Assembly: GCF_004360225.1 (NCBI RefSeq)
Contig: NZ_SNUA01000005.1
Location: 1 to 64,000 of the forward strand
Direction of reading: 5' to 3'
DNA length: 64,000 nucleotides
Source: Alcanivorax sp. 24
GTDB taxonomy: Bacteria; Pseudomonadota; Gammaproteobacteria; Pseudomonadales; Alcanivoracaceae
Shown: piece by piece, positions 24,612 to 40,852 of the stretch
Numbering within the stretch: position 1 is the stretch's first letter
Layout: every line of letters starts with the position of its first letter
Program-made: the position numbers and the translations under genes
The notes under the pieces: model-generated
Databases searched by the model: none
What the model saw: only the letters and a program-made list of their open reading frames with translations
What the model was told of the DNA's origin: nothing

Positions 24612-25505
24612 ATGTTCGAGACACTACAACAACTGGACTGGCGCACCCTGGTATTACCGGCCATGGTGCCGGTATTCATCGCGGTGCTCCTGGCGGAGTG
24701 GATCCGTTTTCGTGGTCGCGGCCGCTTCCTGCTGCGCGACACTGTCGCCAGCATGGGCCTGGGGGCGCTGTACATGGTGTTCGATACGCTGGTCACCGTG
24801 ACCCTGGTGGCGCTACTGTTCAACTGGGCCTACCAGCACCGGCTGTTCACCGTCACCATGACCCCGCTCACCGGAGCGCTGCTGTTCGTGCTTCTGGAGT
24901 TCTTTTATTACTGGTTTCACCGTGCCAGCCATCGCATCCGCTGGTTCTGGTCGGCTCATGTGGCGCACCATTCCAGCCGCTACATGAACTTCTCCACCGC
25001 CATGCGGCAAAGCGCCCTGTACAGTCTGGCCGGCAACTGGATTTTTTACATTCCGCTGGCGTTTCTCGGCTTCGAGCCGGTGTGGGTATTCTTCATGCTC
25101 ACCGTGAATCTGGCCTATCAGTATTTCATTCATACCCAATGGGTTGGCAAACTGCCGCGCCCGGTCGAGTTCGTGTTCAACACGCCCAGCCACCACCGCG
25201 CCCACCATGGCCGCAATCCCGAATACATCGACCGCAACTACGGCGGCATCCTGATCCTTTATGACCGGCTGTTCGGTACTTTCGTGGAAGAGCGGGAAGC
25301 GGTGCCGGTGGAGTACGGCATTACCCGTCCGGTGGACAGTTTCAATCCGGTCACGTTGACGGTGCACGAGGCCCGCGACATGTTTCGCGATGCGCTGCGG
25401 CCCGGGCCATTAGGACAGCGTCTGAAGCATTTCTGGGCGCCACCGGAATGGCAGCGCCCGGAGCAGGAAGCGCGGGGCGGATTCAGCCGCTCCCCGGCAG
25501 ATTGA
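24612..25505 (+). CDS. Membrane fatty acid hydroxylase/sterol desaturase family protein
   Basis: Integral membrane protein of 297 residues with four or more hydrophobic segments and the diiron histidine cluster of the family: HRASH (about 104-108), HVAHHSSR (about 116-123) and NTPSHHRAHHGRN (about 196-208). Members hydroxylate or desaturate lipids, sterols or carotenoids; the substrate cannot be told. The ATG at 24612 follows ACGAGG. Its last 23 bases overlap the convergent dctM gene. Confidence 0.87.
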   Translation: MFETLQQLDWRTLVLPAMVPVFIAVLLAEWIRFRGRGRFLLRDTVASMGLGALYMVFDTLVTVTLVALLFNWAYQHRLFTVTMTPLTGALLFVLLEFFYYWFHRASHRIRWFWSAHVAHHSSRYMNFSTAMRQSALYSLAGNWIFYIPLAFLGFEPVWVFFMLTVNLAYQYFIHTQWVGKLPRPVEFVFNTPSHHRAHHGRNPEYIDRNYGGILILYDRLFGTFVEEREAVPVEYGITRPVDSFNPVTLTVHEARDMFRDALRPGPLGQRLKHFWAPPEWQRPEQEARGGFSRSPAD

Positions 25506-26817
25506 GCAACAGCAGCGACAGGGCCGGAAACACTACCAGGATGGCGATGCGTATGACGTCCGCGCACAGGAACGGCACGATACCGCGACTCACCGTTCCC
25601 AAAGAGGTTTTGACGCTGTACTTCTGCACGATGAACAGGTTCATCCCCATGGGCGGCGTGATCAGACCGATCTCCACCACCATCAGGGCCAGGATGCCGA
25701 ACCAGATCGATTTCTCGGTATAGGTCAGATCAAAGAATTCCAGGTTGACCACGATCGGGTAAAAGATCGGCACGGTGAGCAGGATCATGGACAGGGAGTC
25801 CATCACGCAGCCCAGCAGCAGGTAGAGGGCCAGGATCGAACACAGCACCACGAACGGCGCCAATCCACTGTCGGCGACCCAGGCCGCCAGTTCCGCCGGC
25901 ATCTGGCTGAGCGCCAGGCCACTGTTAAGCAGGTCGGCGCCGACCACCACCAGGTAGATCATGGCGGTAGCCTCGGCGGTGCCGATCAGACTTTGATACA
26001 GCCCGTTCCAGCGCAAGCCCCCGCGCACCACCGCGAACAGGCCGCAGGCGGCGGCGCCGATGGACGCCGCCTCGGTGAGATTGGCCCATCCACCGTAGAT
26101 GCCGAAGATCACCACGACGAAAATCAACAGCACCGGAGAGACCTCCAGCAACGCCCGCCACCGCTGCGTCCAGCCGGCCTTGTCCACCCGCGGCACCGAC
26201 GCCATGGTCCGTACCGCCACCAGGCGGATCACCACCAGGTAACCGAACATCGCCACCAGACCAGGAATCACCGCCGCCATGAACAGCTTGGCGATGGACT
26301 CCTCGGTGAGCACGGCATAGATGATCAACGGCACCGACGGCGGGATCAGAATCCCCAGGGTGCCCGCCGCCGCCACCGTGCCGGCGGCCAGTTTCGACGG
26401 ATAGTTGTGCTTCTCCAACTCTGGCAATGCCACCTGACTCATGGTGGCGGCGGTGGCCAGGGACGAACCGCAAATAGCACCGAAACCGGCGCAGGCACCG
26501 GCGGAGGACATCGCCAGACCACCGCGCCAATGACCGATAAAGGCCGCCGCCGCTTTGAACAGCGCGCGCGACAGACCACCGTGAATGGCGAATTGCCCCA
26601 TCAACACAAATAACGGGATCACCGCCAGGTCGTAATTGGAAAAGCGGGCGTAAACCAGATTGTTGATGGTGAACAGCAGCGCCGTGGTGTCACCATGATT
26701 GACGATCAGATAGCAGGCCACGCCGCCCAGCAGCATGCCGACGCCCACGTGCACACGCAGCGCCAGAATCAGCAATACGCCGCCGAGCACCCACAGGCCG
26801 ATTTCCATACCGCTCAT
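25483..26817 (-). CDS. dctM: TRAP transporter large permease subunit
   Basis: Inner-membrane protein of 444 residues with about 12 to 14 hydrophobic segments; PLFVLMGQFAIHGGLSRALF, GFGAICGSSLATAATM and GTLGILIPPSVPLIIYAVLTEESIA are hallmarks of DctM/SiaM. It couples Na+ or H+ flow to uptake of an organic acid delivered by DctP. It overlaps dctQ by four bases. The position next to the aryl-acetate genes and the shared operator before dctP suggest an aromatic acid as cargo (inference). Confidence 0.92.
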   Translation of the reverse strand: MSGMEIGLWVLGGVLLILALRVHVGVGMLLGGVACYLIVNHGDTTALLFTINNLVYARFSNYDLAVIPLFVLMGQFAIHGGLSRALFKAAAAFIGHWRGGLAMSSAGACAGFGAICGSSLATAATMSQVALPELEKHNYPSKLAAGTVAAAGTLGILIPPSVPLIIYAVLTEESIAKLFMAAVIPGLVAMFGYLVVIRLVAVRTMASVPRVDKAGWTQRWRALLEVSPVLLIFVVVIFGIYGGWANLTEAASIGAAACGLFAVVRGGLRWNGLYQSLIGTAEATAMIYLVVVGADLLNSGLALSQMPAELAAWVADSGLAPFVVLCSILALYLLLGCVMDSLSMILLTVPIFYPIVVNLEFFDLTYTEKSIWFGILALMVVEIGLITPPMGMNLFIVQKYSVKTSLGTVSRGIVPFLCADVIRIAILVVFPALSLLLLNLPGSG

Positions 26818-27305
26818 GACGGCACCTGCAGCGATTTACCGGTCAGCGACCGCGCCGCCTGATACAGGGCGCAGGCGCACAACAGCGCCAGCCCAGGCAA
26901 CATCAACATTTGCGGAATCCACAACGGCACCGCCAGCATGGTGGAGGTGGAGCCATACTTATGACTGTCCAGTGTCAGCAGCCCGGTGCGCCAGATCAGC
27001 AACGCCGCCACCAGCGCCAGCAACAGATGACTGCTCAACAACAACACGCGGTTCACCCACGCCGGCAACAGCCCGCCGATCAGATCCACACGAATGTGGT
27101 TATCGCGCAGCTCGCACAGCGGCATGAACGAGGCCACCGCCACGGCAATGGCCATTTCCAGAATTTCGATGTCACCGGGAATTGGCGCGGACCACAACTT
27201 GCGCCCCAGCAAGGAGACCAGCGACATGGCAATCACCGCCAGCACCACGGCACCGCCAAGCACGGCGACGGCAGTGCTGAGACGGCGCAATACCGTTTCA
27301 ACCAT
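26814..27305 (-). CDS. dctQ: TRAP transporter small permease subunit
   Basis: Four-helix membrane protein of 163 residues. The segment FMPLCELRDNHIRVDLIGGLLP is the DctQ family signature. GAGG lies six bases before the start. It lies between dctP (63 bp upstream) and dctM (overlapping), giving the usual P-Q-M order. Confidence 0.9.
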   Translation of the reverse strand: MVETVLRRLSTAVAVLGGAVVLAVIAMSLVSLLGRKLWSAPIPGDIEILEMAIAVAVASFMPLCELRDNHIRVDLIGGLLPAWVNRVLLLSSHLLLALVAALLIWRTGLLTLDSHKYGSTSTMLAVPLWIPQMLMLPGLALLCACALYQAARSLTGKSLQVPS

Positions 27306-27368
27306 GGGAAACCTCGGTCTTTATCAGAGTTGAAGGGCGGAACTGACAGGCGGCATTAATCGGCGGCG

Positions 27369-28418
27369 TTAGCGGGCGGCGTGCTCACGCACGATGTCCT
27401 GCAACCCCTGATACAGCGCCTGGCGGTCGATGCCGCCCTTGTCGGAGGCCACCCACTCATCGGTGACCCTCCGCGAGGCCTCACGCATGGACTGATAGGT
27501 GGCGTCATCCAGCGTCACGATCTCGTGGTCCGGATCGGCGGACAACTGCTCCACCACCTGATCGATGGTGACATCCCAGGCTTCCCCGAAACGGCGGGAC
27601 AGCGCCTCTCCGCTAAGCCGGTCGACGATCGCGCGCAGATCGTCGGGCAGATTCTGATAGCGCTTTTTATTCATCAGCACCGCCAGCGTGGTCACCGTGG
27701 GCGTGGCCTGATCCGGCGCGGTCCGCATGTGGTAATGCGTGGTCTCATCCAGCTTGGTGGGCGGCACCACTTCCCACACCGCCAGGGCCCCGTCGATAAC
27801 GCCCTTGGCCAGGGTGTCGGCGATCTGCGCCGGCGGCATACTCACCGGGGTGGCGCCCAGGGAAGTCAGCATCTCGGAAGCCAGCCGGGTGGATGCCCGC
27901 ACCCGCAGTCCTTTCATGTCGGCCAGGGAAGCCACTTTACGGCGCGCGGTGTGCAAAGTACCACCGCCGTCGCTCTGAATCGCCAATACGTGGTAATCAC
28001 GGAAATCATCCTTGGCGTAGCGCTGGTAGAACTCCCAGGCCACTTCACTGCCGTCAACACCGCCGGGAGGCATGACGAACGGCAGCTCCAGCGCCTCGCT
28101 GCGCGGGAAACGGCCGGCGGCATAACCAAGACCGGTCCAGACAATATCCACCACGCCGTTGCGCGCCATGTCGGCCAGTTGCGCCGGGGTGCCCCCCAAT
28201 TGCATGGACGGATAAATCTGACATTCGATTCGGTTGCCGGACTGCTCAGCCAGATCCGCGCACCAGGGTTCCAATACGTTTTTCTGGGCGTTCGCCACCG
28301 CGGGAAGAAAATGCATGATACGTAAAGTGACTTTTTCTTTTTGTTCCGCCGCCTGGGTCTGGGCACTCACGGACAGCCATACGATCGCCAGCAGGGCCAT
28401 GATTGTTTTGGAATTCAT
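27369..28418 (-). CDS. dctP: TRAP transporter periplasmic substrate-binding protein
   Basis: Binding protein of 349 residues with a signal peptide (MNSKTIMALLAIVWLSVSAQTQA). The mature body has the DctP-type start TLRIMHFLPA and the helix with MKGLRVRASTRLASEMLTSLGATPVSMPPAQI, whose arginine is the one that grips a carboxylate in this family. The ATG at 28418 has GAGAGG upstream; a GTG two codons earlier lies in that site. Upstream (28504-28519) is a palindrome nearly identical to the one at the hpaG1 promoter. Its ligand is likely a hydroxyphenylacetate or similar acid (inference). Confidence 0.9.
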   Translation of the reverse strand: MNSKTIMALLAIVWLSVSAQTQAAEQKEKVTLRIMHFLPAVANAQKNVLEPWCADLAEQSGNRIECQIYPSMQLGGTPAQLADMARNGVVDIVWTGLGYAAGRFPRSEALELPFVMPPGGVDGSEVAWEFYQRYAKDDFRDYHVLAIQSDGGGTLHTARRKVASLADMKGLRVRASTRLASEMLTSLGATPVSMPPAQIADTLAKGVIDGALAVWEVVPPTKLDETTHYHMRTAPDQATPTVTTLAVLMNKKRYQNLPDDLRAIVDRLSGEALSRRFGEAWDVTIDQVVEQLSADPDHEIVTLDDATYQSMREASRRVTDEWVASDKGGIDRQALYQGLQDIVREHAAR

Positions 28419-28503
28419 ACACACCTCTCGGGTTGATACCCTGATTGTTATTCATCGAAATCCGTCCTTGCCATCGATTCCTTTCACTGGCCCGCTCGGA
28501 TTC

Positions 28504-28519
28504 CATTAATGTATTAATG
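28504..28519. promoter_or_regulatory. Candidate HpaR operator upstream of dctP
   Basis: CATTAATGTATTAATG has perfect 7-bp arms around GT and differs from the site at 31909-31924 at only one central base. It lies about 86 bp upstream of dctP in a locally AT-rich stretch. MarR-family HpaR proteins bind such palindromes; the hpaR gene is at 40424. Confidence 0.6.
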
Positions 28520-29027: not shown

Positions 29028-30929
29028 GTGCAGTTCCACCATCACGGCTATGTATCCGATGACCCGAGAATCGAGGACGCGACCGGCACCGGGATCGATC
29101 GCCCCGACACCTTGCCGGACCAGGTCGACGTGCTGATTGTCGGCAGCGGACCGGCGGGCATGATCGCCGCCGCCCAGTTGGCGAAGTTTCCGAATATCAC
29201 CACCCGTATCGTCGAACGCCGCCCCGGGCGCCTGCGGCTGGGCCAGGCCGACGGCATCCAGGCGCGCAGTGTGGAAACCTTCCAGGCGTTCGGCTTCGCC
29301 GAACGGATCACCGCCGAGGCCTACCGGATCACCGAGATGGCGTTCTGGACACCGGACCCGGACAACCCTTCCCACATTGTGCGCGCCTCGGTGGCTGCCG
29401 ATGACGCCAGCGGCGAAATCAGCGAGTTTCCCCATCTCATCGTCAACCAGGCACGGGTACTCGACTATTTCGCCGAGTTCGCCCGCAACGCCCCCGCCCG
29501 CCTGACACCGGACTATGGACTGGAATTCCAGGATTTACGGATCGATCATGGCGAGGACTACCCGGTGACGGTGACGCTACGTCATGTTTGCGGCGATCAG
29601 GAAGGTCTGGAACGCACCGTGAAAGCCAGGTACGTGATCGGTTGCGATGGCGCCCACAGCCGCGTGCGCGAAGCCATCGGCCGCAAGCACATCGGCAAGG
29701 TCGCCAATCACGCCTGGGGCGTCATGGATGTTCTCGCCACCACCGATTTCCCGGATATCCGCACCAAGTGCGCGATCCAGTCCGCCTCCGGTGGCAGCAT
29801 TCTGCACATTCCCCGCGAGGGCGGTCACCTGTTCCGCATGTACGTCGATCTCGGCGAAGTGGCCGGAGACGACAACCGCCGGGTACGCCAAACCACGCTG
29901 GACACCACCGTCGCCAAGGCCAACCGGATCCTCCATCCCTACACCCTGGAAGTGAAGGACTGCGCCTGGTACACCGTCTACGAAGTGGGCCACCGGGTAA
30001 CCGACAAGTTCGATGACGTGCCCCCCGAGGCTACCGGCACCCGCGCGCCCCGCGTTTTCATCACTGGCGATGCCTGCCATACCCACAGCGCCAAGGCCGG
30101 CCAGGGCATGAATGTGTCCATGCAGGATGGTTGGAACATCGCCTGGAAACTGGGCCACGTGCTCTCCGGCATCGCCCCGGAATCGCTGCTGGAAACCTAT
30201 TCCAGTGAGCGTCAGGTGGTGGCCCAGAACCTGATTGATTTCGATCGCGAATGGTCAAGCCTGATGGCCAAACCGGCCGAGCAATTCAGCGACCCACAGG
30301 AGCTGAAGGAGTTCTACGTCAAGACCGCCGAATTCCCGGCGGGCTTCATGACCGAATATCAACCCTCGATGATCACCGGCGGCAGGGCACACCAGCATCT
30401 GGCCACCGGCTTCCCGGTCGGCAAGCGATTCAAATCCGCCTCTGTCATACGGGTGTGTGATGGCAATGACGTTCACCTGGGGCATCACGCCACTGCCGAC
30501 GGCCGCTGGCGGATCTATGTTTTCGCCGACCGGGCCGCTCCCGCCGAGCACTCCCCGTTGACCACCTTCGCCGACTGGATGCTGAACAGCGCCCGTTCCC
30601 CGGTGGTGAAATACACTCCGGCAGGAACCGATCTCGACAGTCTCTTCGATATCAAGGTGGTCTATCGGCGGCCCCATGGCGAAGTGGAGTTCGGCCCGAT
30701 GATTCCGGCGTTGTTCACGCCAAAGGTCGGCCCGTTCCAATTGACGGACTACGAAAAGGTTTACGCCGTCGACCCGGAGCACGACATCTTCGAAGCCCGG
30801 GGTATTGCCCCGAAAGGCGCGGTGGTGGTGGTGCGGCCGGATCAGTACGTTTCCCTGGTGACCGCTCTGGACGCCACCGATGAACTGACCGCCTTCTTCG
30901 ATGGGGCCATGTTGCGGCACGGCGGATGA
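29028..30929 (+). CDS. Single-component FAD aromatic hydroxylase, MobA/phenol 2-monooxygenase family
   Basis: NAD(P)H-dependent flavoprotein of 633 residues. The FAD dinucleotide motif VLIVGSGPAGMIAAAQLA is at 35-52, the family DG motif YVIGCDGAHSRVR near 203-215, and the second FAD motif VFITGDACHTHSAKAGQGMN near 344-363; a thioredoxin-like C-terminal domain of about 170 residues follows, as in phenol hydroxylase. Overall it resembles 3-hydroxybenzoate 4-monooxygenase (MobA), including the MQFHxxG start. It uses GTG, preceded by AGGAGA. In this locus it sits where HpaBC would be, so I infer that it makes homoprotocatechuate from a hydroxyphenylacetate, most simply the 3-hydroxy isomer. Activity on hydroxybenzoate cannot be excluded. 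Confidence 0.87.
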   Translation: MQFHHHGYVSDDPRIEDATGTGIDRPDTLPDQVDVLIVGSGPAGMIAAAQLAKFPNITTRIVERRPGRLRLGQADGIQARSVETFQAFGFAERITAEAYRITEMAFWTPDPDNPSHIVRASVAADDASGEISEFPHLIVNQARVLDYFAEFARNAPARLTPDYGLEFQDLRIDHGEDYPVTVTLRHVCGDQEGLERTVKARYVIGCDGAHSRVREAIGRKHIGKVANHAWGVMDVLATTDFPDIRTKCAIQSASGGSILHIPREGGHLFRMYVDLGEVAGDDNRRVRQTTLDTTVAKANRILHPYTLEVKDCAWYTVYEVGHRVTDKFDDVPPEATGTRAPRVFITGDACHTHSAKAGQGMNVSMQDGWNIAWKLGHVLSGIAPESLLETYSSERQVVAQNLIDFDREWSSLMAKPAEQFSDPQELKEFYVKTAEFPAGFMTEYQPSMITGGRAHQHLATGFPVGKRFKSASVIRVCDGNDVHLGHHATADGRWRIYVFADRAAPAEHSPLTTFADWMLNSARSPVVKYTPAGTDLDSLFDIKVVYRRPHGEVEFGPMIPALFTPKVGPFQLTDYEKVYAVDPEHDIFEARGIAPKGAVVVVRPDQYVSLVTALDATDELTAFFDGAMLRHGG

Positions 30930-30939: not shown

Positions 30940-31839
30940 TCAGGGCGCCCGCTTGTCGGCCCGGTAGCGCCCCGGAGTCATGCCCGCTTCGCGGGTGAAA
31001 AAACGTGAGAAATAGGCGGGATCATTGAAGCCCAGCTGGTAGCCGATCTCGTTGATCGACGCGGTGGTGAAAATCAGCAACCGACGCGCCTCCTGTATCA
31101 GCCGGTCGAACACCAAGCGCTTGCTGGATTTGCCGGCGATACGCCGGCAAATCTGGTTGAGCCGATTCTCGGTGACGCCCAGTTCGTCGGCGTAACGGGT
31201 CAGAGTCCAGTGATGCGGGTAATGATCCTCGATCAGCATCTGGAAATGCTGAAACAGGGAGAGATCCTCATGACGTACCGGCTGTGGTGTCACGCGGTTA
31301 CGCGCCAACCGAAACAGCTGAATGAAGATCAATTGCGCCAGGGCCCGCACCGCCTGGGGCTGTCCCGGCCGCGGCCGGTGGATTTCACCACGCAGCTCAT
31401 CCAGCAGACGGTCGAGTCCCGCCATCGCCGGTTCCTGCGATGCCGGCAGTTGGGAGGCCGCCACGCACAGCGGCGCGATGTTACTGAAGTCGCCCAAATC
31501 ACCGCTCTCTTCCAGCAGCGACCATACCAACTGTTGCTGCACGGTGAGCACATGGCCGTCGGCGCCCGTTTCGGTGACGAAGGCGTGGGTCACCGTGGGT
31601 GGCGTGAGGAAGAACATGGGCGCCGGCTGATGGTACTGATGCTCATCCAGGTACACCCGTACCACGCCGGACTTGACGTAATGCAGTTGGAAGAAACGGA
31701 CATGGCGGTGCGCCGGCATGTTGCGTCCGAAAAAGTCCGCCATGGGGCCGAGCGCGTCGTAGTGAACCTCGGCATCGGCGTAACGTTTGTCGTACACCTG
31801 ACCGATGTTGATGTTGGGTATGGGATCGGTTGTTGTCAT
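30940..31839 (-). CDS. hpaA: AraC-family activator of hydroxyphenylacetate catabolism
   Basis: Regulator of 299 residues. The cupin-like N-terminal half (MPAHRHVRFFQLHYVKSG, YLDEHQYHQPAPMFFLTPPTVTHAFVTE) closely follows E. coli HpaA, which responds to hydroxyphenylacetates and activates hpaBC; the C-terminal double helix-turn-helix ends with YQLGFNDPAYFSRFFTREAGMTPGRYR. A GTG four codons upstream (31851) is an alternative start. It converges on the FAD hydroxylase (11 bp) and diverges from hpaG1, so it could control both. Confidence 0.88.
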   Translation of the reverse strand: MTTTDPIPNINIGQVYDKRYADAEVHYDALGPMADFFGRNMPAHRHVRFFQLHYVKSGVVRVYLDEHQYHQPAPMFFLTPPTVTHAFVTETGADGHVLTVQQQLVWSLLEESGDLGDFSNIAPLCVAASQLPASQEPAMAGLDRLLDELRGEIHRPRPGQPQAVRALAQLIFIQLFRLARNRVTPQPVRHEDLSLFQHFQMLIEDHYPHHWTLTRYADELGVTENRLNQICRRIAGKSSKRLVFDRLIQEARRLLIFTTASINEIGYQLGFNDPAYFSRFFTREAGMTPGRYRADKRAP

Positions 31840-31901
31840 CGTCCTGCCCACTGCCTGATACCGGCATCATTCACCGCTTTGACGGGTTCGGCAACGTCTT
31901 C

Positions 31902-31943
31902 TTGATTTCATTAATATATTAATGTAAACATTAACCTATTAAC
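31902..31943 (+). promoter_or_regulatory. hpaG1 promoter with candidate HpaR operator
   Basis: TTGATT (31902-31907), a 17-bp spacer and TAAACA (31925-31930) make a plausible sigma-70 promoter. The palindrome CATTAATATATTAATG (31909-31924) fills the spacer exactly, and a degenerate second copy, CATTAACCTATTAAC, lies at 31929-31943, 20 bp (two turns) centre to centre. A repressor bound here would block RNA polymerase. Confidence 0.62.
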
Positions 31944-31959: not shown

Positions 31960-32733
31960 ATGCGGCACGCTAACGTGGAATATCAAGGGCTCGTCCGGAC
32001 GGCCACCGCCGATCCGGACGGCCGCCTCATCGGCGACGACGGCGCGACGCTGGACGCCGCCGCGGTGCGCTGGCTGCCGGTCAGCGACGGCGCCCTGTTC
32101 GGTGTGGCGTTGAACTATCGGGGTTTGCTGGAAGCCCGACTGCCGGAGTTTCAGGCGTCGCCCTATGAGAAGCCGCCGGAGAACCCCGTGTTGTTCATCA
32201 AGACCCCGAATACGCGCAACGCTCACCAGGGCGCCGTGGTACTACCCCGGGGCGAGCGACTGCAGCCAGGCCCTGCCCTGGGCGTGGTGATTGGCCACCG
32301 CGCCAGTCGCGTCAGCGAGCAGGACGCCCTCGACCATGTCCGCGGCTTCACCGTGGTCAACGAGTTCAGCCTGCCGGAAGACAGCTATTACCGGCCGGCG
32401 ATCAAAGCAAAATGCCGGGACGGTTTCTGCGCATTAGGCCCCTGGTGGGTAGACCGCGACGATATCGCCAACCCCCATGACCTGGCGCTGATCCTGACGG
32501 TTAACGGGGTCGAAAAGCAGCGCGGCAGTACCGCCGATCTGATTCGGCCCATTCCCCACCTGATCGCCGAGTTGAGCGAATTCATGACCTTGAACGAAGG
32601 CGACGTGCTGATCACCGGAACGCCGCCGGGCCGGGTGGATGTCCGCGAAGGGGATCAGGTGGACATCACCATCGAGGGCATCGGTACGCTCAGCAATACT
32701 ATCGTCACCGACCATGGCGGAGAGGCAAAATAA
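31960..32733 (+). CDS. hpaG1: HpaG N-terminal-type subunit (isomerase/decarboxylase)
   Basis: FAH-superfamily protein of 257 residues corresponding to the N-terminal half of the fused E. coli HpaG (shared LPE(D/E)SYYRPAIKAKCRDGFC). HpaG decarboxylates 5-oxopent-3-ene-1,2,5-tricarboxylate and isomerises the product. The position that carries the metal-binding ExE in active FAH domains reads PGPALGVVIG, so this half has no such ligands, as in E. coli. AAGGAG lies six bases before the ATG. It is the first gene of the hpa operon and overlaps hpaG2 by one base. Confidence 0.88.
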   Translation: MRHANVEYQGLVRTATADPDGRLIGDDGATLDAAAVRWLPVSDGALFGVALNYRGLLEARLPEFQASPYEKPPENPVLFIKTPNTRNAHQGAVVLPRGERLQPGPALGVVIGHRASRVSEQDALDHVRGFTVVNEFSLPEDSYYRPAIKAKCRDGFCALGPWWVDRDDIANPHDLALILTVNGVEKQRGSTADLIRPIPHLIAELSEFMTLNEGDVLITGTPPGRVDVREGDQVDITIEGIGTLSNTIVTDHGGEAK

Positions 32734-33503
32734 TGAGAAAAGCACGTATTCAGTACCAGGGCGACACGCTGACGGTCGCCGTGAATGACGACGGTTACCC
32801 ACTGTTGGCGGACGGCACCGCACTGGATCCGGACCAGGTCATCTGGCTGCCTCCCGCCACCGGCACCATGTTCGCCCTCGGGCTGAACTACGCCGACCAC
32901 GCCACTGAACTGTCCTTCGCGGCGGCGCCCAAAGAACCGCTGGTGTTCGTCAAGGCGCCCAATGCCTACACCGGCCATAACGGCCGCAGCTGGCGCCCGA
33001 ACAATGTCGAGTACATGCATTACGAATGCGAGCTGGTGGCGGTAATCGGCAAGACCGCCCACAACGTGGCGCGCGCCGACGCCCTCGACCACGTGGCCGG
33101 TTACACCCTGTGCAACGACTACGCCATTCGCGATTACCTGGAAAACTACTACCGCCCCAATTTGCGGGTGAAAAATCGCGACGGCACCACCCCGGTGGGC
33201 CCGTGGATCGTCGACCGTGACGATGTGCCCGACCCCAATGACCTGCGCCTGCGCACCTACATCAACGGCGAGCTGCGCCAGGAAGGTACCACCGCCGACA
33301 TGATTTTCGATGTCGCTTTCCTGATCGAGTATCTGTCCGGCTTCATGACCCTGTCTCCCGGCGACATGATCGCCACCGGCACCCCCAAGGGCATGGCCGA
33401 CGTCCAGCCCGGTGATGTGGTGGACGTGGAGATAGAAGGGATCGGCAGGCTGCGCAACCACATGGTCAGCGAGAGCGACTTTTTCAGGAATACCGAGGAG
33501 TAA
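32733..33503 (+). CDS. hpaG2: HpaG C-terminal-type subunit (isomerase/decarboxylase)
   Basis: FAH-superfamily protein of 256 residues corresponding to the C-terminal, metal-binding half of HpaG. YMHYECELVAVIGK supplies the ExE ligands, and NDYAIRDYLENYYRPNLRVK and TPMG-like SPGDMIATGTPKG are conserved. It probably pairs with the preceding protein to rebuild the two-domain enzyme. The TAATG junction shows tight coupling. Confidence 0.9.
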   Translation: MRKARIQYQGDTLTVAVNDDGYPLLADGTALDPDQVIWLPPATGTMFALGLNYADHATELSFAAAPKEPLVFVKAPNAYTGHNGRSWRPNNVEYMHYECELVAVIGKTAHNVARADALDHVAGYTLCNDYAIRDYLENYYRPNLRVKNRDGTTPVGPWIVDRDDVPDPNDLRLRTYINGELRQEGTTADMIFDVAFLIEYLSGFMTLSPGDMIATGTPKGMADVQPGDVVDVEIEGIGRLRNHMVSESDFFRNTEE

Positions 33504-33506: not shown

Positions 33507-34967
33507 GTGATCAAGCATTGGATTAATGGCCAGCAGGTGGCCAGCGACGAGACCTTCGACAACATCAACCCCGCCACCGGCGAAGTGATCGGCCAGGTGG
33601 CCAGCGGTACCGAAAAGGAAGTCCATCAGGCGGTGGCCGCCGCCAAGGCCGCTTTTCCGGGCTGGGCCGCCACACCCGCGAAGGAACGGGCACGGTTGAT
33701 GCGCCGGCTCGGGGAGTTGATCGATGAGAACGTACCGAAACTGGCGGAATTGGAGACTCTGGATACCGGCCTGCCGATTCACCAGACCAAAAACGTGCTG
33801 ATTCCACGCGCGTCGCATAACTTCAACTTTTTCGCCGAGGTGTGCACCCGCATGAACGGGCACAGTTATCCGGTGGACGACCAGATGCTCAATTACACCC
33901 TGTACCAGCCGGTCGGGGTCTGCGCACTGGTATCGCCCTGGAATGTGCCGTTCATGACCGCCACCTGGAAGACCGCTCCCTGCCTGGCACTGGGCAACAC
34001 CGCCGTGCTCAAGATGTCGGAACTCTCGCCGCTCACCGCCAACGAACTGGGCCGGCTGGCCAAGGAAGCCGGCCTGCCCGACGGCGTGTTCAACGTGATC
34101 CAGGGTTACGGTGCCAGCGCCGGCGATGCCCTGGTACGCCACCCGGACGTGCGCGCGGTGTCGTTCACCGGCGGCACCACCACCGGCCGCAAGATCATGC
34201 GCAACGGCGGCATGAAGAAATACTCCATGGAGCTGGGCGGCAAGTCACCGGTACTGGTATTCGAGGACGCGGATCTGGATCGGGCCCTGGACGCGGCGTT
34301 GTTCACCATTTTTTCTCTGAACGGCGAACGCTGCACCGCCGGCAGCCGTATTTTCATTCAGGAAAGTGTTTACGACCAGTTCGTGGAGACCTTTGCCGAG
34401 CGCGCCAAACGCCTGAAAGTGGGCGACCCCGCCGATCCGGAAACCCAGATAGGCTCGATGATCACCCGTCAGCATTACGAGAAGGTCACCGGCTATATTC
34501 GTCTGGGTATCGAGGAAGGCGCCAAATTAGTGGCCGGCGGCCTGGAGCGCCCGGCCGGGCTGCCGGAGCGGGTGGCCAACGGACAGTTCATTCAGCCCAC
34601 GGTCTTCGCCGACGTGGATAATCGCATGCGCATCTGCCAGGAAGAAATCTTTGGCCCGGTGGTGTGTCTGGGTAAATTCAAGGACGAACGCGAAGCGCTG
34701 CGACTGGCCAACGACGTGGAGTACGGCCTGGCCTCCTATGTCTGGACCCGGGACGTCGGCAAGGCTCACCGGGTGGCCCGCGGCATCGAGGCCGGCATGG
34801 TGTTCATCAACAGCCAGAACGTGCGCGATCTGCGTCAACCGTTCGGCGGCATCAAACAATCCGGTACCGGCCGTGAAGGCGGTGAATACAGCTTCGAGGC
34901 CTTCACCGAAGTCAAGAACGTCTGCCTTTCCATGGGCAGTCACCACATTCCCCGCTGGGGCGTGTGA
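33507..34967 (+). CDS. hpaE: 5-carboxymethyl-2-hydroxymuconate semialdehyde dehydrogenase
   Basis: NAD-dependent aldehyde dehydrogenase of 486 residues that oxidises the ring-cleavage product. The catalytic glutamate is in MELGGKSPVLVFED and the cysteine in LNGERCTAGSR; the N-terminal KHWINGQQV and WNVPFMTATWK (substrate/NAD pocket) fit HpaE. The start is GTG with GAGGAG upstream. The gene lies three bases after hpaG2 and 54 bp before hpaD. Confidence 0.93.
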   Translation: MIKHWINGQQVASDETFDNINPATGEVIGQVASGTEKEVHQAVAAAKAAFPGWAATPAKERARLMRRLGELIDENVPKLAELETLDTGLPIHQTKNVLIPRASHNFNFFAEVCTRMNGHSYPVDDQMLNYTLYQPVGVCALVSPWNVPFMTATWKTAPCLALGNTAVLKMSELSPLTANELGRLAKEAGLPDGVFNVIQGYGASAGDALVRHPDVRAVSFTGGTTTGRKIMRNGGMKKYSMELGGKSPVLVFEDADLDRALDAALFTIFSLNGERCTAGSRIFIQESVYDQFVETFAERAKRLKVGDPADPETQIGSMITRQHYEKVTGYIRLGIEEGAKLVAGGLERPAGLPERVANGQFIQPTVFADVDNRMRICQEEIFGPVVCLGKFKDEREALRLANDVEYGLASYVWTRDVGKAHRVARGIEAGMVFINSQNVRDLRQPFGGIKQSGTGREGGEYSFEAFTEVKNVCLSMGSHHIPRWGV

Positions 34968-35021: not shown

Positions 35022-35885
35022 ATGGGCGAAGTCGTTCTCGCCGCTAAAATCACCCACGTGCCCTCCATGTACCTGTCGGAGTTGCCGGGCAAACATCAGG
35101 GCTGCCGGCAGCCGGCCATCGACGGCCACAAGGAAATCGGCCGCCGTGCCCGTGAGCTCGGCGCCGATACCGCCGTGGTGTTCGACGTGCACTGGCTGGT
35201 CAACAGCGGCTTTCACATCAACTGCGGTGAACGGTTTGAAGGCATCTACACCAGCAACGAGCTGCCGCACTTCATCAAGGACATGCGCTACCGTTATCGC
35301 GGTAACCCCGCGCTGGGAGAAAACATAGCCGCCGAGGCCAACGCCGCCGGCGTGCGTACCCTGGCTCACAACATCCCCAGTCTGGAACTGGAGTACGGCA
35401 CCCTGGTGCCCATGCGCTACATGCACATGGACGTACCCGGGGAGCAGCATCTCAGTGTCATTTCCATCGCCGCCTGGAACGCCTGGCACCGGCTGGAGGA
35501 CAGTTTCACCTTCGGCGCCGCCGTACGCCGCGCCATCGAGGCCAGCGATCACAAAGTTCTGGTACTGGCTTCGGGATCGCTTTCCCACCGTTTTTCCGAC
35601 GATCGTGAAGCGGAGAACAACCTGCACAAATGGACCCGCGAGTTCGATCGCCAGGTGGACATGAGGGTGGTGGACCTGTGGCGCCAGGGCCGCTTCAGGG
35701 AGTTCTGCGCCATGCTGCCGGACTATGCCGAGCACTGCTATGGCGAAGGCGGCATGCATGACACCGCCATGTTGCTGGGCCTGCTGGGCGGCGCCGAATA
35801 CGACAAGCCGGTGGAGATTCTTACCGAACCGTTCGGCAGTTCCGGCACCGGCCAGATCAATGCGGTGTTCCCACTGCCCTGGTAA
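35022..35885 (+). CDS. hpaD: 3,4-dihydroxyphenylacetate 2,3-dioxygenase (type III extradiol)
   Basis: LigB-type Fe(II) dioxygenase of 287 residues that opens homoprotocatechuate by meta cleavage. It matches E. coli HpaD almost throughout: KITHVPSMYLSELPGK with the ligand H12, DTHWL-equivalent VVFDVHWLVNSGFHI, LEYGTLVPMRYM and LASGSLSHRF. This identity is the strongest sign that homoprotocatechuate is the pathway ring substrate. GGAG precedes the ATG. Confidence 0.95.
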   Translation: MGEVVLAAKITHVPSMYLSELPGKHQGCRQPAIDGHKEIGRRARELGADTAVVFDVHWLVNSGFHINCGERFEGIYTSNELPHFIKDMRYRYRGNPALGENIAAEANAAGVRTLAHNIPSLELEYGTLVPMRYMHMDVPGEQHLSVISIAAWNAWHRLEDSFTFGAAVRRAIEASDHKVLVLASGSLSHRFSDDREAENNLHKWTREFDRQVDMRVVDLWRQGRFREFCAMLPDYAEHCYGEGGMHDTAMLLGLLGGAEYDKPVEILTEPFGSSGTGQINAVFPLPW

Positions 35886-35916
35886 CCGCGCGACGTACTC
35901 AAACGGAGTATGGCTC

Positions 35917-36306
35917 ATGCCTCATTTCATTGCTGAATACAGCGGCAATCTCGAATCCGAAGCGGATTTCGACGGTCTGTTCGCGAACATCCACGAGGTT
36001 CTCGGTAACAGTGGTGTGTTTCCACTGGGTGGCATTCGCAGCCGCGCCATCCGTCATGACACCTGGCGCATCGCCGACGGCCAGCACGACTACGCGTTCG
36101 TGCACATGACCCTCAAGGTCGGCAGCGGCCGCGACCTGGCGACACGCCGGCGGGTGGCGGAAGCGCTGTTCGAAGTCATCAAGGCCCACTTCACGCCGTT
36201 GCAGGAAAAGCGATTACTGGCGGTGTCCTTCGAGATGACCGAGTTGAACCCGGATCTGAATTTCAAACACAACAACATCCACGCCTTTCTCAAAGGGGAG
36301 AGCTGA
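35917..36306 (+). CDS. hpaF: 5-carboxymethyl-2-hydroxymuconate delta-isomerase
   Basis: Small isomerase of 129 residues in the 4-oxalocrotonate tautomerase superfamily, with proline directly after the initiator methionine (MPHFIAEYS), the catalytic base of the family, and the FELTELNP-like [18 protein letters not shown] end. In-frame codons upstream of 35917 overlap hpaD and would bury the proline, so they are rejected. The stop overlaps the hpaH start (TGATG). Confidence 0.93.
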
Positions 36307-37109
36307 TGCTCGACAAGGCTTTGATTCGCCAGGCCGCCCTGCGGCTCGACGACGCCGAACAACGGCGCACCCAGATCCGGCAGCTGTCACTGGAACAACC
36401 GGACATCACCATCGAAGACGCTTATGCCATTCAACGGGCCTGGGTGGATAAAAAAATCGCCGACGGCCGTAAGCTGATCGGCCACAAGATCGGCCTGACT
36501 TCCCGTGCCATGCAGGTATCCTCCAACATCAACGAACCGGACTACGGTGCCCTTCTGGATGACATGCTGTTTGACGAGGGAACCGATATTCCCTGCAACC
36601 GTTTCATCGTACCGCGCCTGGAAGTGGAGCTGGCCTTCATGCTTGGCAAACCGCTGTCAGGCCCGGACTGCACCCTGTTCGATGTCTACGATGCCACCGA
36701 ATATGTGATTCCGGCACTGGAAATCATCGACGCCCGTATCCAGCAAGTGGACGCGCAAAGCGGCGCCACCCGCAAGGTCTTCGACACCATATCCGACAAC
36801 GCCGCCAACGCCGGCGTGGTCATGGGTGGCCGTGCCATTCGGCCCATGGACGTGGATCTGAGACGGGTGTCGGCGGTGCTGTATCGCAATGGCGTGATCG
36901 AGGAATCCGGTGTCGCCGCCGCCGTACTCAACCACCCGGCCAAGGGCGTGGCCTGGCTCGCCAACAAGCTGGCACCCTACGGTGTCGGCCTGGAGCCCGG
37001 CCAATTGATTCTCGGCGGCTCCTTCACCCGACCGGTGGCGGTGCGCCCCGGCGACACCTTTCATGTGGACTACGGTGATCTCGGCGCCATCGCCTGCCGT
37101 TTTGTTTAA
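36306..37109 (+). CDS. hpaH: 2-oxo-hept-4-ene-1,7-dioate hydratase
   Basis: Hydratase of 267 residues in the MhpD/HpaH family, adding water to the decarboxylated intermediate. Typical motifs are [31 protein letters not shown] and the metal-site [11 protein letters not shown], with ALEIIDARI. It is coupled to hpaF and lies 12 bp before hpaI. Confidence 0.94.
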
Positions 37110-37121: not shown

Positions 37122-37922
37122 ATGGACATGCCGGTGAACACATTCAAACGGGCCCTGCTGCAAGGCGTACCGCAAATCGGGCTGTGGTTGGGGTTGGCCC
37201 ATCCCTACAGCGCCGAGCTGGCGGCCAACGCCGGTTTTGACTGGCTGTTACTTGACGGTGAGCACGCGCCCAATGATCTGCGCAGCCTGCTGTCCCAATT
37301 GCAGGCCATTGCTCCGTACCGCTCGCAACCGGTGGTGCGCCCCCCCGTGGGCGACACCGCTCTGATCAAGCAGTACCTGGACCTGGGAGCACAGACACTG
37401 CTGGTGCCAATGGTGGAGACAGCGGATCAGGCGCGCCAGTTGGTCCGGGACATGCGCTACCCACCAGAGGGCGTGCGCGGGGTCGGCAGCGCTTTGGCGC
37501 GGGCATCGCGCTGGAACAGCGTGCCCGGTTACCTGGACAAGGCCAACGACGAAATGTGTTTACTGGTGCAGATAGAGTCAAAAGCCGGCCTGGACAATCT
37601 GGACGCCATCGCCGCGGTGGAGGGTGTCGACGGCGTCTTCATCGGCCCCGCGGACCTCAGCGCCGCTCTGGGCCATCGCGGCAACCCCGCTCACCCGCAA
37701 GTGCAAGAGACCATTAAGAATGCCATTGGCCGCATTCTGGCCGCCGGCAAGGCTCCCGGTATTCTCTATGCCGATCCCGGAAAGGCGCGCCATTTTCTCG
37801 ATCTCGGTTGTTTGTTCGTGGCGGTGGGCGTGGACACCAGCCTGCTGATGGGCGCTCTGAAAAACCTGGCCGGGCGATTCATGGCCAGTGACCACAACCC
37901 GGCTCCGCCTGCCGTGTACTGA
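37122..37922 (+). CDS. hpaI: 4-hydroxy-2-oxoheptanedioate aldolase
   Basis: Class II pyruvate aldolase of 266 residues that splits 4-hydroxy-2-oxoheptanedioate to pyruvate and succinic semialdehyde. [28 protein letters not shown] (metal ligand E) and [14 protein letters not shown] are the HpcH/HpaI signatures. Its aldehyde product explains the succinate-semialdehyde dehydrogenase two genes downstream. Confidence 0.95.
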
Positions 37923-37971
37923 CCGATGTATTGACGCTCCCGCGCTCATCATTACAACAAGAGGAAAAATC

Positions 37972-38925
37972 ATGCTTCGCTTACGCTCGCCACTGGCCGC
38001 GACGCTGCTTTTCATAGCCACTCTGATCCCTTTCGGCGTCGCCGCCGCACCGGCGGATCAGGCGCCGGTTCGTCTGATCCTGCTTGGCACCAAGGGCGGC
38101 CCTTCCATACTCTCCGATCAGCGCTTGCCCCAATCCACCGCGCTCATGATCGGCGATGATCTTTACCTGCTCGACGCCGGCTACGGCGCCAGCCTGCGTC
38201 TGGTTCAGGCCGGTATTCCGCTGGCCCGCCTCAAAGGCGTGTTCATCACCCATCTGCACAGCGATCACGTACTGGATTATCCGTCGGTGCTGATGAATGG
38301 CTGGGCCAGCGGGCTGAAGCATTCGGTGCGGGTGTTCGGCCCGCCCGGTACTCAGGCGATGACCGACAACACCTGGAAGACGTTCCAGGTGGACATCGGT
38401 CTGCGTATCGACGATGAAGGCAAACCCGATCCGCGCCAGCTGATCACCGTAAAGGAAATCGGAGAAGGCGTGGTGTATCGGGATAAGCAACTCACCGTCT
38501 CCGCCCTGCGCGTGCCGCACCCGCCGTTCAAGGACGGCCAGGCCTTCGCTTACAAGTTCGAGACCGGCGGCAAGACCATCGTTCTTTCCGGCGACCTGAA
38601 TTACTTTCCGCCGCTGGCGGAGTTCGCCAAGGGCGCCGATGTCCTGATCAACGAAGTGGTCCACGTGGAAGCTGTCGAACGCCTGGCCAAACGTATCGGT
38701 AACGGCTCCACTCTGGCCAAGGCCATCATCTCTCACCACGTCACCGCCGGGAACGTGGGCCGTATCGCCAGGGACGCCGGCGTGAAGAAGCTGGTGCTGA
38801 GCCATTTCGTTCCCGCCGACGATCCTTTGGTCACCGATGACGTCTGGCGCCAGGCGGTGGGCGATCAGTATCAAGGGCCCATCGTGGTGGGCCGCGACGG
38901 CATGGAAATCAAACTCGATGACTGA
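37972..38925 (+). CDS. Secreted metallo-beta-lactamase-fold hydrolase in the hpa operon
   Basis: Protein of 317 residues with a clear Sec signal peptide (LRSPLAATLLFIATLIPFGVAAAPA). The metal motif is ITHLHSDHVLDYP, followed by LSGDLNYFPP and a distal ISHH and LSHF, a pattern of the RNase Z/arylsulfatase-like MBL branch. GAGGAAA precedes the ATG. Its end overlaps the next gene by eight bases, so it is a true operon member, though no such gene is part of the E. coli hpa set. It may release the aromatic acid from an ester, lactone or sulfate in the periplasm (inference). Confidence 0.82.
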   Translation: MLRLRSPLAATLLFIATLIPFGVAAAPADQAPVRLILLGTKGGPSILSDQRLPQSTALMIGDDLYLLDAGYGASLRLVQAGIPLARLKGVFITHLHSDHVLDYPSVLMNGWASGLKHSVRVFGPPGTQAMTDNTWKTFQVDIGLRIDDEGKPDPRQLITVKEIGEGVVYRDKQLTVSALRVPHPPFKDGQAFAYKFETGGKTIVLSGDLNYFPPLAEFAKGADVLINEVVHVEAVERLAKRIGNGSTLAKAIISHHVTAGNVGRIARDAGVKKLVLSHFVPADDPLVTDDVWRQAVGDQYQGPIVVGRDGMEIKLDD

Positions 38926-40390
38926 CACCACCGCTTTTTCAAGCGCTCTTCAACAGAACGGGCTCTTTCGGCAAGACGCTTATATTGACGGCAACTGGGT
39001 AAACACCGCGCAGCGGTTCGCGGTCACCGATCCCGCCACGGGCAACATCGTGGCGACCGTGGCGGATTGCGGCGCCGACGCCACCCGCGCGGCGGTGGAC
39101 GCCGCCCACCGGGCGCTGCCGGCCTGGCGCGACCGGACCAGCGGCGAGCGCGCCGCGCTGCTGAAGGAATGGTTTCGTCTGGTGATGGAAAATCGCCAGG
39201 ATCTGGCTCACTTGCTGAGCCTGGAACAAGGCAAGCCACTGGCGGAAAGTCTCGGCGAAATCGACCACGGCGCCCGCTTCCTGGAGTGGTTCGCCGAGGA
39301 AGCCAAGCGGGTGTACGGCGATATCATTCCCCATGATCGCGCCGGCCGGCGTCTGGTGGTGCTGAAACAACCCGTGGGGGTGACGGCGGCGATCACCCCT
39401 TGGAACTTTCCCCATGCCATGGTCACCCGCAAGGCGGCACCGGCGCTTGCCGCCGGTTGCACCCTGGTGCTCAAACCGGATCCGCAAACACCGCTGTCGG
39501 CACTGGCACTGGCGGCACTGGCGGAACAGGCAGGCCTGCCCGCCGGCGTCCTGAACGTGGTCACCGGACTCGACGCCGCCACCATCGGCGCGGCACTGAC
39601 CGGCGACGAGCGGGTCCGCAAATTATCATTCACGGGTTCCACCGCCGTGGGTAAGTTACTGATGGCCCAATGCGCGGAACAAATGAAAAAGGTCAGCCTG
39701 GAATTGGGCGGTAACGCCCCCTTCATCGTTTTCGACGACGCCGATTTGGACGCCGCCGTGCAAGGCGCACTGACATCCAAGTTTCGCAACAGTGGCCAGA
39801 CTTGCGTCTGTACCAACCGCTTCTTGATCCACGACCGCATTTACGATGCGTTCTGCCAGCGCTTCAGCACGGCGGTGGCGGCGCTGCGGGTCGGGCCGGC
39901 TTTCGAGGAAGGTGTGCAGCAAGGGCCGCTCATCAACGAGCAGGCCCTGCGGAAGGTGGAGATTCACCTGGCCGATGCCGCCAGCAAAGGTGCCCGCATT
40001 CTCATCGGCGGGCAGCGCCATGCGCTCGGCGGCGCTTTCTTTCAGCCCACGGTGCTGGCCAACGCCACACCGGATATGTTGCTGTTTCAGCAAGAAACTT
40101 TCGGACCTCTGGCACCAGTGTTCCGGTTTCATGACGAAGAGGAAGCACTGGCCCTGGCCAACGACACGCCGTTTGGACTGGCCGCTTACCTCTATACACG
40201 TGATCTGGGGCGCGCCTGGCGCGTCAGCGAGGCGCTGGAATATGGCATGGTCGGCGTTAATGAAGGTATTATTTCCAACGAGCGGGCACCCTTTGGCGGC
40301 ATCAAGGAATCAGGTCAGGGCCGCGAAGGCTCCCGTTACGGAATTGAGGACTATCTGGAAGTAAAATACATGTGTCTGGGCATCGGTTGA
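38918..40390 (+). CDS. gabD: Succinate-semialdehyde dehydrogenase
   Basis: NAD(P)-dependent aldehyde dehydrogenase of 490 residues. The motifs ITPWNFPHAM, KPDPQTPLSALAL, LELGGNAPFIVFDDADLD (catalytic E) and FRNSGQTCVCTNRF (catalytic C followed by C two residues on) match GabD. It would oxidise succinic semialdehyde from HpaI to succinate for the TCA cycle. I chose the ATG at 38918 inside the end of the MBL gene; a longer in-frame reading is only shadow. Confidence 0.9.
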   Translation: MTDTTAFSSALQQNGLFRQDAYIDGNWVNTAQRFAVTDPATGNIVATVADCGADATRAAVDAAHRALPAWRDRTSGERAALLKEWFRLVMENRQDLAHLLSLEQGKPLAESLGEIDHGARFLEWFAEEAKRVYGDIIPHDRAGRRLVVLKQPVGVTAAITPWNFPHAMVTRKAAPALAAGCTLVLKPDPQTPLSALALAALAEQAGLPAGVLNVVTGLDAATIGAALTGDERVRKLSFTGSTAVGKLLMAQCAEQMKKVSLELGGNAPFIVFDDADLDAAVQGALTSKFRNSGQTCVCTNRFLIHDRIYDAFCQRFSTAVAALRVGPAFEEGVQQGPLINEQALRKVEIHLADAASKGARILIGGQRHALGGAFFQPTVLANATPDMLLFQQETFGPLAPVFRFHDEEEALALANDTPFGLAAYLYTRDLGRAWRVSEALEYGMVGVNEGIISNERAPFGGIKESGQGREGSRYGIEDYLEVKYMCLGIG

Positions 40391-40423
40391 TGCCCATTCC
40401 AACTGTAAGGACGCCGATCCCGC

Positions 40424-40852
40424 ATGCCCAAAGCCGCACCCTCCCTCACCCTGGCCCTGTTGCAGGGTCGCGAAGCCGTGATGGCGTACTTCCGCCCTTT
40501 GCTCAACAAACACAACTTGACCGAGCAGCAATGGCGAGTCATTCGTATTCTTAAACAAGCTCCTGACTTTACCCTGGAAAGTCGTGATCTGGCCGCCCTG
40601 GCCTGTATTCTCCGGCCCAGCCTTACCGGCGTGCTGGTGCGCCTGGAAAAGGCCGGCCACGTACACCGCTGGAAACCGGAAACCGATCAACGGCGCCTGT
40701 GCGTCACCCTCACCGATCAGGGACATGAGGTATTCGCGCAAATGAGCAAAGGCATGAACCGGCAATATCAGAAGATCCAGCAGCGACTCGGCGAGGACGA
40801 CTACCAGACCTTGATGAACCTGTTGAGCCGGCTGCGGGATCTACAGCCCTGA
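40424..40852 (+). CDS. hpaR: MarR-family repressor of homoprotocatechuate genes
   Basis: Winged-helix regulator of 142 residues very close to E. coli HpaR: LALLQGREAVMAYFRPLLNKHNLTEQQWRVIRIL and CILRPSLTGVLVRLEKAGHV with KPETDQRRL. HpaR represses the meta-cleavage operon and is released by pathway aromatics. It lies 33 bp after gabD and is the last gene before a terminator. The likely operators are at 31909 and 28504. Confidence 0.93.
   Translation: MPKAAPSLTLALLQGREAVMAYFRPLLNKHNLTEQQWRVIRILKQAPDFTLESRDLAALACILRPSLTGVLVRLEKAGHVHRWKPETDQRRLCVTLTDQGHEVFAQMSKGMNRQYQKIQQRLGEDDYQTLMNLLSRLRDLQP

Follow-up and report, generated by a model that had tools for sequence, protein, structure and literature searches.

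The 64-kb stretch of Alcanivorax sp. 24 DNA analysed here (the window), part of a 4.76-Mb draft genome in 99 contigs, contains at 25483-40852 a complete lower pathway for homoprotocatechuate (HPC), together with hpaA, hpaR, a TRAP carrier and one hydroxylase of the MobA family (29028-30929). This hydroxylase is very probably a single-component hydroxyphenylacetate hydroxylase that feeds HpaD. The assignment draws on its membership of a clade of its own, a conserved neighbourhood, a putative operator common to its gene and the hpa operon, the retention of the residues that anchor the substrate carboxylate in MobA, and a TRAP carrier of the aromatic-acid type. The HPC pathway is already known; its entry enzyme would be new.

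In the proposed route, the TRAP carrier would import an aromatic acid, and the hydroxylase, predicted to contain FAD and to use NAD(P)H, would add a hydroxyl group beside the phenolic hydroxyl of 3- and/or 4-hydroxyphenylacetate to give homoprotocatechuate, whose ring HpaD would cleave. HpaE, F, G, H and I and the semialdehyde dehydrogenase would complete the degradation, while HpaR, with HpaA, would control both the TRAP/hydroxylase genes and the hpa operon.

The cluster and the established entry enzymes

The TRAP genes M, Q and P lie on the minus strand and are followed by the hydroxylase gene (plus), hpaA (minus) and, on the plus strand, hpaG1, G2, E, D, F, H and I, genes for an MBL-fold hydrolase and a succinate-semialdehyde dehydrogenase, and hpaR (Table 1). 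The meta-cleavage set HpaD, E, F, G, H and I is present and adjacent, and every Hpa protein except HpaF passes its NCBIfam equivalog cut-off. An earlier reading of the letters without database searches (the sequence-only reading) had listed all lower-pathway genes with hpaA and hpaR, and had placed a single-component FAD hydroxylase and a TRAP carrier where HpaBC and HpaX were missing; NCBIfam and Pfam profile matches bear out both statements.

The absence of HpaBC, also claimed there, extends beyond the window: HpaB (PF03241) has no match in the whole 4.76-Mb genome, the same search being positive in four of 14 control genomes, and an hpaB gene hidden elsewhere is thereby ruled out. This agrees with a report on a marine consortium including Alloalcanivorax xenomutans, in which hpaBC is said to occur in the P. 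aeruginosa member alone (PMC11309472). The claimed absence of HpaX holds for the cluster, which contains no MFS gene; no genome-wide HpaX search was made.

The Acinetobacter-type C2 oxygenase belongs to PF08028, which has 36 places in the host genome. The DNA of all of these (8 loci and 28 stretches) was searched against four C2 probe proteins taken from hpa loci in the window's order, the probes being identified as C2 through the matches of L158 to PDB 2JBR (E 9.6e-172) and of L169 to NF045920 (662.5 bits, cut-off 650), the model for the oxygenase component of p-hydroxyphenylacetate 3-hydroxylase. No C2-type hydroxylase was found at the 36 places; the best match (L090; 22% identity, 44 bits) reads as an ordinary acyl-CoA dehydrogenase, as do, judged by eye, the top eight places. 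Since three C2 probes score 79, 88 and 92 bits against PF08028 and the genome's best places 87 and 83, a C2 gene should rank among the first few, and a C2-type enzyme hidden among the acyl-CoA dehydrogenases is ruled out at these places. A second MobA-family protein as the real enzyme was also rejected: the genome shows no more than fragments at 32-36% identity within a single frame (C5:77365-78378).

Clade and genomic company of the hydroxylase

The hydroxylase combines FAD_binding_3 (PF01494, 215.8 bits) with the phenol-hydroxylase C-terminal domain (PF07976, 192.5 bits) and scores 1015.2 bits against NF006144 ('phenol 2-monooxygenase'; cut-off 560). Its best solved relative by sequence is 2DKH, the 3-hydroxybenzoate hydroxylase MobA of Comamonas testosteroni (50.5% identity); the hydroxylases of Alloalcanivorax xenomutans and A. 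balearicus are each 95% identical to it, which makes Alloalcanivorax the very likely genus of the host. In a maximum-likelihood tree (quick search; 62 rows comprising the window, 2DKH, 31 of 80 named carrier loci and L127-L155), it falls within a 36-row clade with a basal branch length of 0.65 and 100% support in the Shimodaira-Hasegawa-like approximate likelihood ratio test. 2DKH lies outside and groups with three gammaproteobacterial rows (L131, L136, L149) that are 66-70% identical to it, the nearest row of the window's order reaching 69.6%. The sister pair L132/L134, at whose junction with the clade the tree program issued a long-branch warning, is excluded from all claims. The enzyme is thus of the MobA type, as the sequence-only reading had proposed, but its separate clade speaks against a MobA borrowed unchanged. 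Because the gammaproteobacterial copies nest in the tree (supports 87-93, not starred), the tree suggests an actinobacterial origin for those of the clade.

Within the window's order, 35 of 293 genomes carry a homologue at E 1e-150 or better, nine (window included) at 63-100% identity and 26 at 41-53%. Stretches of about 20 kb, one locus each, were fetched from the eight other clade genomes and from 25 of the 26 distant-homologue genomes; the distant set includes neither the homologue locus of G097 nor the second matches found in G288 and G328. An HPC dioxygenase is present within the stretch at 8/8 clade loci versus 1/25 distant-homologue loci (Fisher p 6e-7; like all co-occurrence counts and p values here, this ignores shared descent), and with the window counted, all nine sampled order carriers of the clade have one alongside. 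L124 and L126 very likely represent the genomes of L004 and L007, so that the eight loci add about six genomes to the named set. In Marinobacter, hpaD stands directly upstream of the hydroxylase gene (e.g. L006), and in L128 and L129 hpaF is divergent from it, with a dioxygenase of the VOC type, unrelated to the LigB type, present (TIGR02295, 424.5 bits in L128; the L129 copy is 96% identical). Both types of homoprotocatechuate dioxygenase gene, LigB and VOC, occur in L128; in L129 the VOC type alone was detected. The hydroxylase gene is followed immediately in both loci by a 1022-1047-codon frame (L128 11032-14175, L129 11064-14132) that combines P450, pyridine-nucleotide reductase and flavodoxin domains; this fusion may perform a ring or O-dealkylation step ahead of the hydroxylase.

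The association recurs outside the order. Linkage to an HPC dioxygenase was found at six of the seven named gammaproteobacterial loci (L008 being unlinked) and at 42 of the 73 other named loci, actinobacterial by title; a search for further conserved genes near the actinobacterial copies yielded numerous overlapping frames in this GC-rich DNA. Searches for HpaB and HpaD covered 50 of the 80 named carrier genomes (7 gammaproteobacteria, 43 others). VOC-type HpaD exceeds its cut-off in 41 of the 43, is split at contig ends in one (G016) and is lacking in one (G048), while HpaB occurs in 16 of the 50, all among the 43 (0/7 gammaproteobacteria), leaving 27 of the 43 without it. Among 197 Micrococcaceae genomes, 182 carry a homologue at the same threshold and 178 a VOC-type HpaD above cut-off; 174 have both, 8 the homologue only, 4 HpaD only and 11 neither (p 3e-10). 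The Micrococcaceae matches listed reach down to 61% identity, and the three weakest carriers (G380, G411, G448; E 1e-212 to 7e-181) may fall outside the clade. The distinct entry route put forward in the sequence-only reading stands as a reading, but it is not peculiar to this genome, as Marinobacter, other gammaproteobacteria and actinobacteria share it. Nor would all actinobacteria need the clade, since the HPC cluster described for Rhodococcus ruber includes, by annotation, a 4-hydroxyphenylacetate 3-monooxygenase along with a flavin reductase (PMC6498646).

How the entry step is filled elsewhere in the order is also instructive. HpaD_Fe exceeds its cut-off in 23 of the 293 genomes and HpaB is found in 27, both occurring together in three (G253, G053, G330). 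A C2 gene is present in seven of 14 hpa loci from genomes without the clade (L157, L158, L159, L160, L162, L168, L169) and in none of the eight clade loci; in the remaining seven of the 14, no entry enzyme was identified. The step is filled in the order by at least two known enzymes and, if the clade hydroxylates hydroxyphenylacetate, by a third. The only linked distant-homologue locus, L151 (G149), carries a 42% MobA homologue that an MFS gene separates from hpaI, 1.5 kb away. L157 (G177, same genus code) has the same cluster, but a C2 oxygenase and hpaA occupy the position of the MobA homologue, of which there is none in 20 kb (L151 8947-15258, L157 3969-10421). The two loci share 89-95% identity over hpaI, H, F, D and E, 85% over the MFS gene and 83-92% over a luciferase-like gene on the other side; G149 has no HpaB in its genome, C2 beyond the locus being outside the search. 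From this one pair, it seems that the MobA family can replace a known entry enzyme and was recruited to the step more than once, perhaps a second independent time.

Substrate anchors, candidate substrates and known systems

In MobA, Asp75 and Tyr271 are described as contacting the phenolic hydroxyl, His135 and Lys247 the carboxylate, and Leu258 and Ile260 as stacking (PMC3546652). All six residues are invariant in the 36 clade rows, and because these anchors are kept, a phenol bearing a carboxylate is expected as the substrate. Clade-specific residues near the anchors are V257I (36/36), F364V (36/36) and S/T369G (35/36).

Several observations weigh against the assignment to hydroxyphenylacetate. 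The activity itself is a prediction from sequence, and the anchors are likewise kept in the true-MobA clade, where they leave 3-hydroxybenzoate and the hydroxyphenylacetates undistinguished. HpaB coexists with the clade enzyme in the 16 non-gammaproteobacterial carriers noted above, and G253, of the window's genus, has the clade gene in its cluster and HpaB elsewhere, which is not strict replacement. Linkage is also incomplete: for 31 of the 73 actinobacterial loci the fetched stretch, short in some cases, shows no HPC dioxygenase, L008 (Marinobacter halodurans) has the hydroxylase gene with no hpa gene within 16.8 kb, and the eight Micrococcaceae genomes with the homologue alone lack HpaD. 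Besides the disregard of shared descent, 10 of the 26 order genomes whose homologues are all distant likewise exceed the HpaD_Fe cut-off; genome-level pairing alone therefore does not single out the clade, and such co-occurrence was set aside as proof in favour of adjacency. Seven of these ten are among the eight rows of one distant sub-clade (L147, L148, L150-L155; 41-45% identical). Within that sub-clade only L151 is linked to hpa, and several of its genomes also have C2.

That the enzyme is an ordinary 3-hydroxybenzoate 4-hydroxylase standing beside hpa genes by chance is highly improbable, even though family, anchors and the 50.5% identity to 2DKH would suit it. It lies outside the 2DKH clade, which has a much closer row in the same order, and its association with HPC genes is conserved in two phyla. 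The product, protocatechuate, would also need a ring-cleavage enzyme. Intradiol dioxygenases (PF00775) are absent from the genome, an argument against a 3-hydroxybenzoate role, and the one LigB protein besides HpaD resembles 4,5-DOPA dioxygenase, with a score under the cut-off of that model. Protocatechuate feeding was set aside on these grounds, no protocatechuate ring-cleavage enzyme having been seen; protocatechuate 2,3-dioxygenase was not searched for. Arthrobacter sp. Rue61a, moreover, is described as growing on protocatechuate and not on 3-hydroxybenzoate (PMC3534580), a point that counts only if Rue61a has the gene. A 47% homologue at L139 (8928-12252) adjoins pobA (TIGR02360) instead, with AraC-type and TRAP genes nearby; this is likely a true 3-hydroxybenzoate cluster and a useful contrast.

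Ring hydroxylation next to the hydroxyl of either 3- or 4-hydroxyphenylacetate yields the same product, HPC. The sequence-only reading had a MobA-type enzyme feed HpaD from 3-hydroxyphenylacetate; the feeding is supported, but 4-hydroxyphenylacetate is at least as likely a substrate. With 3-hydroxyphenylacetate as the only substrate, MobA chemistry would act on the next longer acid: the four polar anchors are kept, the new hydroxyl would be placed para to the side chain, the clade-specific residues could make room, and genomes with both the clade enzyme and HpaB could split the two isomers. This option is nevertheless rather unlikely, as the literature covered contains no report of a carrier growing on 3-hydroxyphenylacetate, and the 4-isomer better suits so broad a distribution in a family that includes tyrosine users.

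A one-component 4-hydroxyphenylacetate 3-hydroxylase, acting on substrate derived from tyrosine, would refine the assignment to hydroxyphenylacetate and comes close to an even chance of being correct. It would suit the homologues in 182 of 197 Micrococcaceae genomes and the 27 of 43 tested carriers without HpaB. Rue61a is described as growing on tyrosine, 4-hydroxyphenylacetate and HPC, and as not hydroxylating phenol to catechol (PMC3534580), and for A. arilaitensis Re117, which uses tyrosine and has HPC genes, a genome study failed to locate the gene for 4-hydroxyphenylacetate 3-monooxygenase (PMC2991359). The argument presumes, however, that Re117 and Rue61a have the clade gene; HpaB also occurs in Paenarthrobacter nitroguajacolicus (L043 = G039), the species in which Rue61a was formerly placed, the unchanged carboxylate anchors of MobA suit the meta acid, and the actinobacterial C2 search covered fetched locus stretches, not genomes.

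Distinctly improbable, lastly, is a different phenolic acid substrate that would yield homoprotocatechuate or a near analogue of it, in place of the simple hydroxyphenylacetates. The nearest structures of the TRAP solute-binding protein (SBP) bind cinnamates, ahead of a 4-hydroxyphenylacetate complex, and the P450 fusions of L128 and L129 stand beside the hydroxylase; yet HpaA, HpaR and the whole HPC set adjoin it here, and no side-chain-shortening enzyme is apparent among the cluster genes.

Among characterised systems, MobA (PDB 2DKH, 2DKI) shares fold family, domains, length and the anchors Asp75/Tyr271 and His135/Lys247 with the window enzyme, which differs in its limited identity, separate clade, V257I, F364V and S/T369G, and HPC neighbourhood. 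The C1-C2 p-hydroxyphenylacetate hydroxylase (PDB 2JBR) from Acinetobacter baumannii catalyses the reaction proposed here but is of the acyl-CoA dehydrogenase family and has a separate reductase, unlike the one-component window enzyme. Phenol hydroxylase from Trichosporon (PDB 1PN0, 1FOH) is of the same fold family but more distant, and its substrate has no carboxylate. Its hydroxylation is described as ortho (PMC3546652). The two-component 4-hydroxyphenylacetate 3-hydroxylase HpaBC of E. coli and Klebsiella has the proposed reaction and pathway place but is of an unrelated protein family, and its HpaB is absent from the host genome; the E. coli enzyme is reported to accept both 3- and 4-hydroxyphenylacetate (PMC3053370). 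MhaAB, the 3-hydroxyphenylacetate 6-hydroxylase of Pseudomonas putida U, is, like the proposed enzyme, a flavoprotein acting on a hydroxyphenylacetate (PMC3053370), but it has a coupling protein and its product is homogentisate, not HPC.

Tentatively, and with a little less than an even chance, the clade would be a one-component flavoprotein that adds a third type of hydroxyphenylacetate hydroxylase, unrelated to the other two, and would also supply the 4-hydroxyphenylacetate 3-monooxygenase that has gone unlocated in the Gram-positive tyrosine-to-HPC route; near-universal in Micrococcaceae, it would have been passed to marine gammaproteobacteria and placed there under HpaR control. Two reviews describe 4-hydroxyphenylacetate 3-hydroxylase as two-component (PMC10816480, PMC10537072), and in the literature covered, with most subscription journals outside that coverage, no MobA-type enzyme is assigned to hydroxyphenylacetate. 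If correct, the proposal would give a physiological role to a widespread group of proteins matching NF006144, allow the gap noted in a published genome of Arthrobacter (PMC2991359) to be tested through a single gene, and provide a single-protein route to 3,4-dihydroxyphenylacetate.

Shared palindrome, transporter and features of the cluster

The palindrome CATTAAT-NN-ATTAATG occurs exactly twice in the window, in the intergenic regions facing the TRAP/hydroxylase genes and hpaA/hpaG1 (28504-28519 and 31909-31924), with no further match in the 64 kb at up to two mismatches and none at up to one mismatch in 135 kb of other sequence from the same genome. A similar 15-base pattern, with three mismatches allowed, gave 11 matches (both palindrome strands counted) against a shuffle mean of 1.3. 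Both sites are exact in L004, L005, L123 and L124 and present with 1-2 mismatches in L127. In L128 and L129 the palindrome lies between hpaF and the hydroxylase gene with two mismatches, L128 having an exact copy before the TRAP genes as well, and in Marinobacter L007, L009, L125 and L126 it precedes hpaR with two mismatches. With as many as two mismatches allowed, no copy was found in L130, in the Marinobacter loci L006 and L015, or in 12 of the 14 hpa loci from genomes lacking the clade. Control loci without an HPC dioxygenase (24 loci, 453 kb) gave two matches at two mismatches. Because the palindrome precedes both gene groups and nothing else in the window, it suggests that the TRAP/hydroxylase genes and the hpa operon form one HpaR regulon, HpaR being the natural candidate to bind this putative operator.

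The intergenic region between the TRAP and hydroxylase genes also holds a perfect 27-bp inverted repeat (28680-28787; predicted RNA hairpin of -78.9 kcal/mol) within an insert of about 250 bp that is lacking in L004, L005 and L123. As a diverged copy recurs in L091 of the same genome (92% over 27 bp), the repeat looks like a dispersed REPIN-like element.

The SBP is closest to solved aromatic-acid SBPs and is in this sense TarP-like; those nearest structures bind coumarate, ferulate, caffeate and cinnamate. These comparisons narrow its probable ligand to the aromatic acids.

Table 1. Features of the HPC cluster in the window, with supporting profile scores
Feature	Coordinates	Strand	Support or position
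TRAP large permease (DctM)	25483..26817	-	PF06808 284.5 bits; TIGR00786 303.4
TRAP small permease (DctQ)	26814..27305	-	PF04290 76.2 bits
TRAP solute-binding protein, aromatic-acid (TarP-like) type	27369..28424	-	Pfam-confirmed
Putative HpaR operator, palindrome CATTAATGTATTAATG	28504..28519	.	Between TRAP and hydroxylase genes
MobA/phenol-hydroxylase-family FAD monooxygenase; proposed hydroxyphenylacetate hydroxylase	29028..30929	+	FAD_binding_3 + Phe_hydrox_dim
hpaA, AraC-type activator	30940..31851	-	TIGR02297 391 bits (cut-off 274.65)
Putative HpaR operator, palindrome CATTAATATATTAATG	31909..31924	.	hpaA/hpaG1 intergenic region
hpaG1, isomerase/decarboxylase subunit, N-terminal type	31960..32733	+	TIGR02305 268.9 bits (cut-off 228.65)
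hpaG2, isomerase/decarboxylase subunit, C-terminal type	32733..33503	+	TIGR02303 401 bits (cut-off 276.4)
hpaE, 5-carboxymethyl-2-hydroxymuconate semialdehyde (CHMS) dehydrogenase	33507..34967	+	TIGR02299 742.7 bits (cut-off 638.35)
hpaD, homoprotocatechuate 2,3-dioxygenase, LigB type (HpaD_Fe)	35022..35885	+	TIGR02298 458.8 bits (cut-off 315.95)
hpaF, 5-carboxymethyl-2-hydroxymuconate (CHM) isomerase	35914..36306	+	PF02962 (CHMI) 167.8 bits; NF011605 177.1, below cut-off 215
hpaH, 2-oxohept-3-ene-1,7-dioate (OHED) hydratase	36306..37109	+	TIGR02312 460.7 bits (cut-off 351.5)
hpaI, aldolase	37122..37922	+	TIGR02311 406.1 bits (cut-off 368.8)
MBL-fold hydrolase	37978..38925	+	PF12706 60.5 bits; RNase Z-type matches far below cut-offs
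Succinate-semialdehyde dehydrogenase	38903..40390	+	TIGR01780 699.1 bits (cut-off 646.35)
hpaR, MarR-type repressor	40424..40852	+	TIGR02337 162.2 bits (cut-off 121.2)

An Rfam scan of 25000-41500 gave no matches, and a tRNA search found none. The MBL-fold hydrolase gene within the hpa operon, which the sequence-only reading did not mention, was not found in the Marinobacter stretches and is kept in L004 and L005.

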